A stretch of 63,020 nt of DNA, taken from Gammaproteobacteria bacterium. GTDB taxonomy: Bacteria; Pseudomonadota; Gammaproteobacteria; DSM-19610. The translations under genes were made by a program, and so were the position numbers. The first letter of the stretch is position 1. Each line of letters starts with the position of its first letter. The DNA is taken from assembly GCA_026197075.1 (NCBI GenBank), contig JAPHQV010000001.1:1-63020 (forward strand), read 5' to 3'. Positions 32,741 through 36,708 of this stretch are shown here, in pieces. The notes beneath the pieces were generated by a model. The model was not told the DNA's origin. It made no database searches and saw only the letters and a program-made list of their open reading frames with translations.

Positions 32741-32816
32741 GCCGGAGTAGCTCAGTCGGTAGAGCAACTGATTCGTAATCAGTAGGTCGGAGGTTCGATT
32801 CCTCTCTCCGGCACCA
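32741..32816 (+). tRNA. tRNA-Thr (anticodon CGT)
   Basis: A complete 76-base cloverleaf: acceptor GCCGGAG with CTCCGGC, anticodon arm ACTGA-TTCGTAA-TCAGT with anticodon CGT, T arm GGTTCGATTCC, encoded CCA. Its 3' end is the integration site of the downstream island. Confidence 0.97.
32782..32815 (+). repeat. attL-like direct repeat in the tRNA-Thr 3' end
   Basis: The segment starts GTAGGTCGGAGG and ends GATTCCTCTCTCCGGCACC. The last 19 bases are identical at 36690-36708, and the preceding part is similar apart from two missing bases. This is the standard form of a tRNA attachment site. Confidence 0.88.
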
Positions 32817-33123
32817 TAAATCAAATACTTATAACTACAAAGATGTATCGCCTTTTCGTGTAGACGGAATGCAGACAATCGGCAGCATAGGCGTTCCCAT
32901 GAGTTTTCCTCATGTAATAGATGATGGTGGCGATACAATGCTCAGGATTCCATCTGGGCTGATTGCTTGGACACCAAAATGCTTTGGCGACCCCTAGAAA
33001 TTGTACAGATTCTGTTCCCTGATGTTCAAAAGGCTGGACAAATCATCGCGCGAAGGTTATGACTTCATGGAGTCAATAATCTTTCGTTGCAAGTCATCAT
33101 CCCTGAATAGATAAAAGTAAAAA
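32817..33123. other. Non-coding leader of the tRNA-Thr island
   Basis: 307 AT-rich bases between tRNA-Thr and the first island gene. A 32-codon open frame (32899-32997, MSFPHVIDDGGDTML...) has no ribosome site and no known relative. TGTATCGCC (32842 region) and GGCGATACA (32930 region) are inverted copies. The operon promoter should be in the 3' half, but no clear -35/-10 pair stands out. Confidence 0.5.
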
Positions 33124-33762
33124 ATGGATCTGATCGAACACGACGCAAGCATCGTATTGGTGGGTTCGTTAAACCCAGCTATTTTCCATCCGGAATGGCT
33201 AGCGAAACTAGATTTGATTTCTGCGCGAGATCTTGAGGGTGCAGAGGTGAATGTGGTGCATCCTGAGGTTTCGCTGTTTGATCTTCAGTGGGCGCGGTTT
33301 GATGTTCGGCAAGATCGTTTGATTGTTCGCAGCAATGATCCCGCTTATTTTTCACCTTTAAGGGATCTGGTTATTGGTATATTTTCATTTTTAGAGCACA
33401 CCCCAGTTACCGCTATGGGGATAAACTCAATTATTAAGTATGTAGTCCAGGATGAGGAAAACTGGCACACAGTCGGCCACACACTTGCTCCCAAAGAAAT
33501 CTGGAAAAATTACCTTTCTGGCCATATCGGCATGACGCGTTTGAGCATGAAGAGTGGGCGTAGTGATGATTTGCGAGGTAGTGTGAATGTCACAATTTCT
33601 CCGCTTATGGACAGAAATGGAATCGTTTTTGATTTGAATAATCACATTGTCCTTGAGTCTACGACGGAGATTCGTGAAATTCTTTCTGACCATTGGGAAA
33701 ATCTGCAGAAGGATGCGCTCGTGATTTCTAGGGGTCTATTGAAGGATGCTGGTGCGTTATGA
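33124..33762 (+). CDS. Unknown protein, first gene of the island operon
   Basis: 212 residues, soluble, no signal peptide or transmembrane segment. It starts MDLIEHDASIVLVGSLNPAI and has alternating beta/alpha structure with FSFLEHTPVTAMGINSIIKYV near residue 90. The pattern 'N-P-A-I-F-x-P-x-W' early and 'T-P-V-x-A-x-G-I-N' later recalls sporadically distributed defence-island proteins of the TIGR04255 type, but I cannot confirm membership. No catalytic motif is seen. Its stop overlaps the next start (ATGA), showing coupled translation. Its AT-rich codon use suggests transfer. Confidence 0.72.
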   Translation: MDLIEHDASIVLVGSLNPAIFHPEWLAKLDLISARDLEGAEVNVVHPEVSLFDLQWARFDVRQDRLIVRSNDPAYFSPLRDLVIGIFSFLEHTPVTAMGINSIIKYVVQDEENWHTVGHTLAPKEIWKNYLSGHIGMTRLSMKSGRSDDLRGSVNVTISPLMDRNGIVFDLNNHIVLESTTEIREILSDHWENLQKDALVISRGLLKDAGAL

Positions 33763-34295
33763 AATCAACAGAAATCAACCTAGAGTATTCGTCATCTACT
33801 GCGGCTAAAGATTTGCGTTTTTTGTCGCGGCAGCCATTCATAAAGAAATGGCATGCTGGAAATAGTTCGATCGATGTAAGTATTCGCGAAGGAAGTGCTG
33901 ATTCGGTTTTCGAGATTGAGGCAAAAACTCATCTGATATCGACGCCGTTGGGGAAATTAACGGGTAGCTTTCAGATGCTTCAGTTGTGGGAGGGGTATGT
34001 CGTATCTGTCTCCGATGAAGAGATGCTTTGTCGGATTTTTGATAAAACTAATGAAGAAAATCCTGTGGAAGAGGTTTCAATTCCACTAAAAGAAGTAGAG
34101 CCGGCTGAACTTCCTCTCGTGTACGCAGGTTCTGTTTTTTACTGGTCTATACGGTATGCAGATCAGCGTGGTCGTGGTAGGGCTCGCGAATCTCTTATTC
34201 GTTTTCGCCGACTACCGCCGATTAGCGTAACAAGTATAGAAAAATCGAAAGCACGGGCAAATTATCTTGAACAATTCTTTAGCGAAGCCAAATGA
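33759..34295 (+). CDS. Unknown beta-rich protein, second gene of the island operon
   Basis: 178 residues. The middle (LWEGYVVSVSDEEMLCRIFD, about residues 76-95) and end (YAGSVFYWSIRYADQRGR, then SLIRFRRLPPIS) look like a small beta-barrel, possibly SH3-like, and may bind a partner or nucleic acid. It overlaps the first gene by 4 bases and the third by 29, so the three are made together. No known family assigned. Confidence 0.72.
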   Translation: MKSTEINLEYSSSTAAKDLRFLSRQPFIKKWHAGNSSIDVSIREGSADSVFEIEAKTHLISTPLGKLTGSFQMLQLWEGYVVSVSDEEMLCRIFDKTNEENPVEEVSIPLKEVEPAELPLVYAGSVFYWSIRYADQRGRGRARESLIRFRRLPPISVTSIEKSKARANYLEQFFSEAK

Positions 34296-35391
34296 TGTTC
34301 CTCCTCTTGATCAGTTGGAAGTGTCTCTGTTTGGTCCCGGTGTAGGTGAATGTATTGTTATACATATTGGGAACGGTGAATGGGTCATTGTAGATTCATG
34401 CAAGGATTCTTCCGGTTCGCCAATTGCGCTTTCGTACCTTTCTTCCCTTGGCGTCGACCCTGCTTGCGCAGTTAAGTTTATAATTGTTAGCCATTGGCAT
34501 GATGATCATATCAAGGGTTTGGCTGAAACCGTGCGTGTCTGTGAAGGCGCAAGGGTTGTGTTTTCAGCTGCACTTATGAAAACAGAATTCTTGACTCTGG
34601 TAGATGTTATTAATACCCCGGATGCTCTGATCGATAGAGGTGTGTCTGGTCTTAATGAAATGGATTATGTGGTTAAGCAGTTGCATCGACGGATATTAAA
34701 AAATGGTGGGGGAAAAAATTCCAGTTTATATCTTACGCCAGCAACTGCAGATAAGCGGCTATATATATCCCATGATGTTGAGCTTTGGTGCCTATCACCG
34801 TCTGACGGTGATTTTGTAAATGCATTGAGTGAATTTGGATCGTTGACTAATCAGCTTTCTTCAAGGTATCGGGGCGTCATCCCATCCCCTACATCTAATC
34901 GGAATGCCGTTGCTCTTTGGGTAACTTTTGGGGAGATAGATATTTTACTTGGCGCGGATCTGGAGAATTCTCCACACCCCGATTTTGGGTGGTCTGCTAT
35001 TGTGAATTCTTCAGGTAGACCGAGACGTAAAGCGGCGATATTTAAAGTGCCACATCACGGCTCAAAAACGGCGCATAATGACGATGTAGTTGAGAATGTG
35101 TTATCTGATTCCCCAATATCCATGTTGACGACGTTTAATCGAGGAATAACGCCTATTCCAACGCAGGACGATGTTGATCGAATAAAGGCGTATTCGATGA
35201 ATACATTTTTGACTACCCCGCCTAAGGGGAAAAAACCCAGAAGGGATAGTGTGGTCGAAAAAATGATGAAGCAAGTAGTTACATCGCGAAATGTTATCAG
35301 CGGTGGTGCGGTTGGTCATGTTAGGGTTCGTGTTACCAAGACTGGGCATCCACAGGTTAGATTGGACGGTCCGGCAGTCTCTATTCCATAA
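34267..35391 (+). CDS. MBL-fold metallohydrolase, ComEC-like class
   Basis: 374 residues of the metallo-beta-lactamase fold. Metal ligands are visible: H76-x-H78-x-D80-H81 in SHWHDDHIKG, the aspartate D231 in LLGADLENS, and H263-H264 in VPHHGSKTAHN. The HHGS form is typical of the ComEC/Rec2 C-terminal nuclease-like domains, which suggests DNA or nucleotide hydrolysis. No transmembrane part is present, so it is not ComEC itself. It probably starts at TTG 34267, inside the preceding gene; the conserved part begins at LEVSLFGPGVGECIVIHIG. It is the only recognisable enzyme of the operon and so its likely effector. Confidence 0.85.
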   Translation: MNNSLAKPNDVPPLDQLEVSLFGPGVGECIVIHIGNGEWVIVDSCKDSSGSPIALSYLSSLGVDPACAVKFIIVSHWHDDHIKGLAETVRVCEGARVVFSAALMKTEFLTLVDVINTPDALIDRGVSGLNEMDYVVKQLHRRILKNGGGKNSSLYLTPATADKRLYISHDVELWCLSPSDGDFVNALSEFGSLTNQLSSRYRGVIPSPTSNRNAVALWVTFGEIDILLGADLENSPHPDFGWSAIVNSSGRPRRKAAIFKVPHHGSKTAHNDDVVENVLSDSPISMLTTFNRGITPIPTQDDVDRIKAYSMNTFLTTPPKGKKPRRDSVVEKMMKQVVTSRNVISGGAVGHVRVRVTKTGHPQVRLDGPAVSIP

Positions 35392-36594: not shown

Positions 36595-36621
36595 CCTGTT
36601 TCCCCTGCTTGCGATATACGT

Positions 36622-36650
36622 ATAATATATACTCAACTGTATATTGTCAA
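36622..36650 (-). promoter_or_regulatory. Promoter of the XRE gene with built-in operator
   Basis: On the minus strand, TTGACA (36650-36645) and TATTAT (36627-36622) are separated by exactly 17 bases, a near-consensus sigma-70 promoter. The spacer and -10 edge contain a perfect inverted repeat, ATATAC-TCAACT-GTATAT (36627-36644), the right form and place for binding by the XRE protein encoded just downstream. Confidence 0.82.
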
Positions 36651-36676
36651 TGTGCAGGCGGTAGCATCCAACCGTC

Positions 36677-36708
36677 GTAGGTCGAGATTGATTCCTCTCT
36701 CCGGCACC
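36677..36708 (+). repeat. attR-like copy of the tRNA-Thr 3' end
   Basis: GTAGGTCGAGATT followed by GATTCCTCTCTCCGGCACC, the second 19 bases identical to the tRNA-Thr 3' end at 32797-32815. It marks the right end of the island. No complete tRNA surrounds it. Confidence 0.88.

Follow-up and report, generated by a model that had tools for sequence, protein, structure and literature searches.

In a 63,020-nucleotide stretch of DNA from a gammaproteobacterium of the GTDB lineage DSM-19610 (contig JAPHQV010000001.1, positions 1 to 63,020; henceforth the window) three overlapping genes, here called A, B and C, lie in a small island at a tRNA-Thr gene. Together they are a real mobile unit: relatives recur in the strict order A–B–C, on mobile carriers and among defence or prophage genes, and the third protein carries the metal-site motif of the metallo-β-lactamase (MBL) fold and is kin to ComEC and to the MBL models of defence systems. 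We consider it probable that the trio is a horizontally moving, three-component system directed against phages or other mobile elements, with C as effector gated by A and B. The genes are as follows.

33124–33762, forward strand: gene A, 212 aa (P0001), conserved partner
33759–34295, forward strand: gene B, 178 aa (P0002), overlapping A by 4 bases
34267–35391, forward strand: gene C, 374 aa (P0003), TTG start, overlapping B by 29 bases

Three genes that occur as one unit

The coordinates and overlaps given for these genes by a first-pass annotation of the window proved right. Relatives were gathered with C alone as bait: the best 80 of at least 213 in genome contigs, a further 32 in viral contigs and two on plasmids. 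Profiles of A and B, each built from five sequences, matched 110 and 115 of 119 loci respectively, beside C. From the linkage count four duplicate loci were dropped (two are the window itself and two are viral), with near-identical viral copies kept. C has 1500 nt or more of upstream sequence in 99 loci, and in 98 of these both A and B stand beside it on the same strand; the exception (L065) is without A, and the remaining loci without A or B have less than 600 nt upstream of C. The gap between A and B is at most 25 nt, and that between B and C at most 40 nt, in all 105 measurable loci, with starts of open reading frames (ORFs) placed mechanically and overlaps possibly overestimated. Relatives of the three genes thus co-occur far outside this strain, a point on which the first-pass annotation had left its proposal to stand or fall.

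Separate searches of 369 genomes of the class tell the same story: C was found in four (E≤1e-20), A in five (E≤1e-5), and four loci are shared, an overlap whose probability by chance is about 7e-9. The remaining A (L182, 6806–7459) is divergent and matches in part of its length (E 2e-7); it lies without B or C downstream of genes that read as type I restriction genes. Given such an A-like protein beside restriction genes and free of its usual partners, A may be a transferable sensor. A wider search for this protein, run without a positive control, found none in viral contigs and none in 398 genomes of the phylum. When viral contigs were searched with A alone (a small alignment) two loci were returned, both of them known trio contigs. 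Two loci (L058 and L079) have C divided between two ORFs and are either decayed copies or assembly errors.

The unit appears to comprise three genes. A same-strand ORF within 60 nt lies upstream in 14 of 109 loci and downstream in 18 of 109. A fourth operon gene was rejected since every cluster of neighbours is confined to at most 8 of 110 loci; the largest two read as integrases and as the antiterminator Q gene beside prophage copies.

Distribution and mobility

The trio is a conserved mobile operon, found in 19 phyla, on plasmids and in prophages. The phyla were counted over the 77 rows of a tree of C whose record title supplies a phylum label; C proteins of 250 aa or less were excluded from the tree and longer rows are represented by their last 400 residues. 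The label changes 36 times on this tree, the minimum possible being 18, although changes above the minimum are no proof of transfer. The carriers include a conjugative plasmid of Pantoea, where tyrosine recombinase genes stand on both sides of the trio, a plasmid of Adhaeribacter (Bacteroidota) and predicted viral contigs. In Escherichia coli the prophage form was matched in 17 of 5426 complete genomes, always on the chromosome, and in 14 of 5426 at ≥99% identity; the query was the prophage form itself, and more divergent forms would escape such a scan.

Among close relatives the trio is sporadic rather than an ordinary core operon: C is present in 2 of 95 relatives' genomes, the window's own counted, and was found neither in the single congener compared (G001) nor in the 18 other family members searched. 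This bears on the most mundane explanation, namely that A, B and C are a metabolic or envelope operon in which C is an ordinary MBL hydrolase of some small molecule. The MBL superfamily is broad, and C does weakly match B3 beta-lactamases, lactonases and glyoxalase-type hydrolases; against this stand the sporadic occurrence just described (C in 4 of the 369 class genomes), the defence-rich contexts and the ComEC-type HHGS motif of C, which together make a metabolic role very improbable.

Defence and prophage context

The neighbours of the trio were compared with PADLOC models, taking 140 of 263 candidates from genome and plasmid loci (L003–L085), as mechanically called ORFs of at least 150 aa, with proteins above 600 aa shortened to 600. 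Among these 140 ORFs 143 PADLOC families were matched (E≤1e-8). The 25 families listed include HmaB and a DUF1156 methylase (4 members), HmaC and DUF499 (2), PsyrA (3), mad2 (2), PbeA (2), BrxH, PglZ, AbiEi, ShosA, SngC and E1-E2, along with restriction-modification of types I, IIG and III; matches in Pfam were DruA (2) and phage integrase (3). A control set of 89 ORFs, drawn from the window and the tRNA-Thr regions of relatives, yielded three families at E-values of 3e-9 to 7e-9, one of them mad2. The trio therefore sits among defence genes, which supports the first-pass annotation's reading of a candidate defence system.

The E. coli copies provide a second kind of context. In all four records opened the trio stands in a prophage, in inverted orientation, with the antiterminator Q gene on one side and the holin gene on the other. 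RefSeq's name for A is ‘anti-phage protein’ (WP_000143147.1) in two of these records and ‘hypothetical protein’ in the remaining pair. Taken with the neighbourhoods, a putative role in defence is well supported by context.

The same data could be read as a stabilisation module akin to a toxin-antitoxin system, in which a toxic C restrained by A and B mainly keeps a plasmid, prophage or island in place. The tight operon would suit such a module, as would the mobile carriers (plasmids included) and the likely nuclease nature of C. Three strictly linked genes, on the other hand, exceed the usual pair, and defence families abound around the trio. Stabilisation is poorly separated from defence by sequence, since many modules do both; as the main function of the trio we judge it unlikely.

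Protein C

C is the most readily interpreted of the three proteins. The first-pass annotation had pointed out its MBL residues, and all are present: an intact HxHxDH motif (H76, H78, D80 and H81), D231 and HHGS. The conservation analysis covered distinct sequences: 102 of A, 109 of B and 114 of C. All seven motif residues, which we take from the MBL fold to be metal ligands, occur in 107 of the 110 C rows filled at three key columns, the window's included; one of the misses is a truncated row.

Profile comparisons place C close to ComEC and to the MBL components of defence systems. All 49 members of the C alignment (A8) match the PADLOC models RTasMBL and LmuA (E≤1e-3), the best at 1.5e-17 and 5.2e-16 respectively; the window's C does so at 2.3e-9 and 2.2e-8. 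Avs1a matches 8 of the 49, more weakly. Among chains of solved structure, the C profile comes nearest to a ‘Competence protein’ (1.7e-11) and to ComEC (3.5e-10); C also matches phrog_28593 at 1.1e-48. That C is a ComEC-like MBL-fold hydrolase and a predicted nuclease effector is well supported; it may be a DNase.

MBL-fold enzymes also serve phages: Apyc1 is an anti-Pycsar phage enzyme of this fold. The trio might then be a counter-defence device, its MBL enzyme degrading a host signalling nucleotide as Apyc1 does and prophages carrying it to escape immunity. Prophages do carry the trio, and Apyc1 chains are among the weak matches of the C profile. However, at E 0.038 Apyc1 stands behind ComEC and many other MBL proteins, so that C is far nearer ComEC. 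Moreover, three C proteins found no match among 50,697 phage records, where counter-defence genes would be expected, and the trio sits among bacterial defence genes with A and B present in nearly every locus. Counter-defence is, on this evidence, improbable.

Proteins A and B

The first-pass annotation could name no family for the two partners. This stands for Pfam, PADLOC and NCBIfam, where the window's A and B have no useful match, and falls for PHROGs, where A matches phrog_36401 (of unknown function) at 1.4e-8. With whole alignments as queries, no model of PADLOC 2.0.0 matches A (84 members) and none usefully matches B (92 members). Sequence relatives of solved structure were likewise wanting in the Protein Data Bank (PDB), with nothing useful for A (best E 0.17) and none for B. 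A was also set against TIGR04255, a sporadically distributed family: comparison of 16 of its members with 84 A proteins gave an hhalign probability of 2% over 43 columns. Separately, the window's genome carries a gene of the TIGR04255 family (contig C3 of G000, 110587–111303, E 3.6e-25).

Folds were predicted from 84 A and 92 B sequences, a set without plasmid rows, close duplicates or proteins of extreme length. The AlphaFold2 model of A (pLDDT 97) weakly resembles the AdoMetDC and phosphagen-kinase folds; these structural matches are middling and we do not claim A as a kinase or decarboxylase. Conserved residues of A include W25, D81, G99, N101, P123, W127 and N172. In the model of B residues 1–70 are of low confidence, residues 71–151 form an OB-fold-like barrel, and a C-terminal helix follows. 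The best structural match of B is an archaeal IF5A, with a Z of 8.4 and a root-mean-square deviation (rmsd) of 2.5 over 62 aligned residues; cold-shock domains and IF1 come next.

The island at tRNA-Thr

The window's copy of the trio resides in a small tRNA-Thr island without an integrase of its own, bounded by direct repeats and of foreign composition. Its remaining features are these.

32741–32816, forward strand: tRNA-Thr (CGT), an attachment-type site (ARAGORN; Rfam RF00005, 76.7 bits)
32797–32815, forward strand: left copy of the 19-base repeat GATTCCTCTCTCCGGCACC, inside the 3′ end of the tRNA
36690–36708, forward strand: right copy of the 19-base repeat GATTCCTCTCTCCGGCACC, exact, at a spacing of 3893
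35635–36594, reverse strand: helix-turn-helix protein of XRE type, 319 aa (P0004), convergent to the trio

The first-pass annotation had described a repeat of the tRNA 3′ end at 36677–36708 with the last 19 bases identical, and the exact recurrence at 36690–36708 bears this out. The repeat ends one base before the tRNA end called by ARAGORN, the final tRNA base not being copied; the longer segment 36677–36708 is 91% identical over 34 columns to the 3′ end of the congener's tRNA. By arithmetic, a chance origin of the 19-base match at the right edge is negligible. Equally sound was the claim of 3.9 kb of AT-rich DNA between the repeats: GC content is 0.43–0.52 in windows inside the island and 0.60–0.72 in most outside, with a transition (0.55–0.58) from about 36.5 to 37.5 kb. 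The cargo consists of A, B, C and the XRE gene only, and profile scans found no integrase family among these four proteins, in keeping with the earlier description of the island as integrase-less.

Comparison with the congener G001 supports an insert. On the left, homology (93% over 1065 bases) reaches position 32817, one base past the tRNA; on the right it restarts at 36714, directly behind the repeat (94% over 263 bases). Between the same edges the congener (L165, 1235–3897) holds two unrelated genes: by reading, one encodes a membrane protein bearing a cyclase-like domain and the other a TPR protein, which was found in one of 13 genomes searched, G001 itself. Because the congener carries other genes in this slot, the site takes different cargo in this genus. 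The tRNA-Thr of the site was found in each of nine regions compared, that of the congener among them.

Two parts of the first-pass annotation did not survive. Sites at tRNA genes, which it had offered as a mark of such islands, were rejected as the general home of the trio: a tRNA lies within 3 kb in 5 of the 80 genome loci, many of which have short flanks. Nor was support found for the XRE gene as a dedicated regulator, and its description as self-controlled goes beyond the evidence. Searches with phmmer and blastp over the ORFs of the 119 loci recovered the window's own copies only; seven plasmid records hold an XRE relative, none of them among the two plasmids with C, and two Cupriavidus plasmids with a relative have no trio within 4 kb. 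No relative lying within the available flanks of the other trio loci, regulation by the XRE protein was rejected and the gene is taken as a passenger of the island.

Some further features of the region deserve mention. Short direct repeats of the GGATCAAGGGGTCAG type lie behind C at 35396–35445, and a similar stretch comes before BrnA in the congener. Just beyond the right repeat of the island are two reverse-strand ORFs (36713–37024 and 36990–37217): a BrnA antitoxin (PF14384, 1.2e-20) adjoining what by eye is the C-terminal end only of BrnT, in whose place the congener has a 93-aa ORF. On the other side of the island, at 30651–31094 on the forward strand, is a minor pilin whose ComP domain, a receptor for DNA uptake sequences (PF16732, 2.2e-19), is a possible hint of natural competence.

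Comparison with known systems

According to one paper (PMC12799240), MBL proteins of this kind act as gated nucleases in Hachiman and AVAST.

One close known relation is a trypsin-MBL gated module, reportedly the subject of work by Huang et al.: C too is an MBL protein of ComEC type with an intact metal-site motif. In contrast to that module, C comes third in its operon and has no recognised protease beside it. No protease family was found in the window's A, B, C or XRE proteins, and a crude motif test over 110 loci found no ORF of more than 150 aa within 5 kb combining GDSGG-like and TAxH-like motifs; a GDSGG-like stretch occurs in one of 102 A members.

Other systems resemble the trio through C. 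The core genes of Avs1, Lamassu, DRT and Hachiman are a STAND NTPase, LmuB, a reverse transcriptase and the HamB helicase, respectively. DRT and Lamassu share with the trio an MBL component whose PADLOC model (RTasMBL and LmuA) matches C, whereas none of the four systems' core genes has a match among the proteins of the window's island. For 6A-MBL (NCBIfam NF058524), a term for which we found no paper that uses it, the MBL-fold component is distantly similar to C, which scores 15.5 bits in the window and 27.6 bits in E. coli against a cut-off of 220. The PADLOC candidate PDC-M48 has component-B models that match up to 24 of the 49 C proteins, while A (84 members) has no PADLOC match and B (92 members) no useful one. 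ComEC/Rec2 provides the closest solved relatives of C, with alignable motifs of the LLGADLE and FKVPHHGS types; C differs in standing alone at 374 aa, and its 23.7 bits on the ComEC_Rec2 model fall short of the cut-off, 190.05.

No published description of the A–B–C trio was recognised in the literature searched, as judged from listings and the starts of abstracts. Brenes and Laub are said to have dealt with E. coli prophage defences in 2025. The term MBL is absent from the main text, in the parts that were available, of Vassallo 2022 (PMC9519451), DefensePredictor (PMC13092281) and the SNIPE paper (PMC13190303). The RefSeq name ‘anti-phage protein’ shows that A has already been flagged by somebody, and an earlier description of the trio is possible. 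We file the trio as an MBL-effector defence system in which two uncharacterised partners replace the protease.

How the trio might work

The proposed scheme is as follows. C would be a ComEC-type MBL metallonuclease, idle in healthy cells. B, with its flexible N-terminus and OB-fold, is probably in contact with nucleic acid or with a nucleic-acid-bound protein. A and B would together recognise infection, with A gating or recruiting C; infection would free C to cut DNA, either that of the phage or the cell's own (abortive infection). Because an effector is present and no protease is recognisable, we propose direct control: A and B would restrain C and let it go, or would recruit it. This gating, like the trigger, the target and protection against phage, is inferred from sequence and comparison.

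A number of observations weigh against this reading, or against parts of it. The known gated MBL effectors depend on a trypsin-like protease and a crude motif test found none for the trio, so the proposed gating would be without precedent. The fold matches of A are weak (TM 0.35; a middling Z of 8.8, rmsd 3.6, 158 aligned), and the Z of 8.4 for B barely exceeds the common level. The window's own copy deviates at conserved positions, with R132 for G in B and V275 for W in C; because of these changes it might be impaired. Turning to distribution, the 36 changes of phylum label are fewer than the shuffled mean of 48.2: labels are more clustered than chance, which points to descent as well as transfer. 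Restricting the genome relatives to the best 80 also means that the linkage figures do not extend to the A and B content of more distant relatives of C.

The defence context has its own weaknesses. The neighbour scan counts families rather than genes, 25 of which are listed, over ORFs called mechanically; the control, smaller at 89 ORFs to the neighbours' 140, draws on fewer genomes and includes some related genes; and mad2 appears among the control matches and in the neighbours' list alike. The name ‘anti-phage protein’ is missing from 15 of the 17 E. coli rows, and since no NCBIfam hidden Markov model matches A, the RefSeq name was not traced to one. A phage-challenge result for the trio was not found in the literature searched.

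With these points taken into account, we still hold an anti-phage or anti-mobile-element system, with C gated by A and B, to be the probable function of the trio. If this is true, a compact immune operon extends from Pseudomonadota to Chloroflexota, travelling on plasmids and residing in E. coli prophages, and two of its three proteins are absent from PADLOC's 2023 models. It would also imply that there is more than one way to arm an MBL nuclease. The trio offers three protein families with conserved residues, along with a testable version in E. coli.

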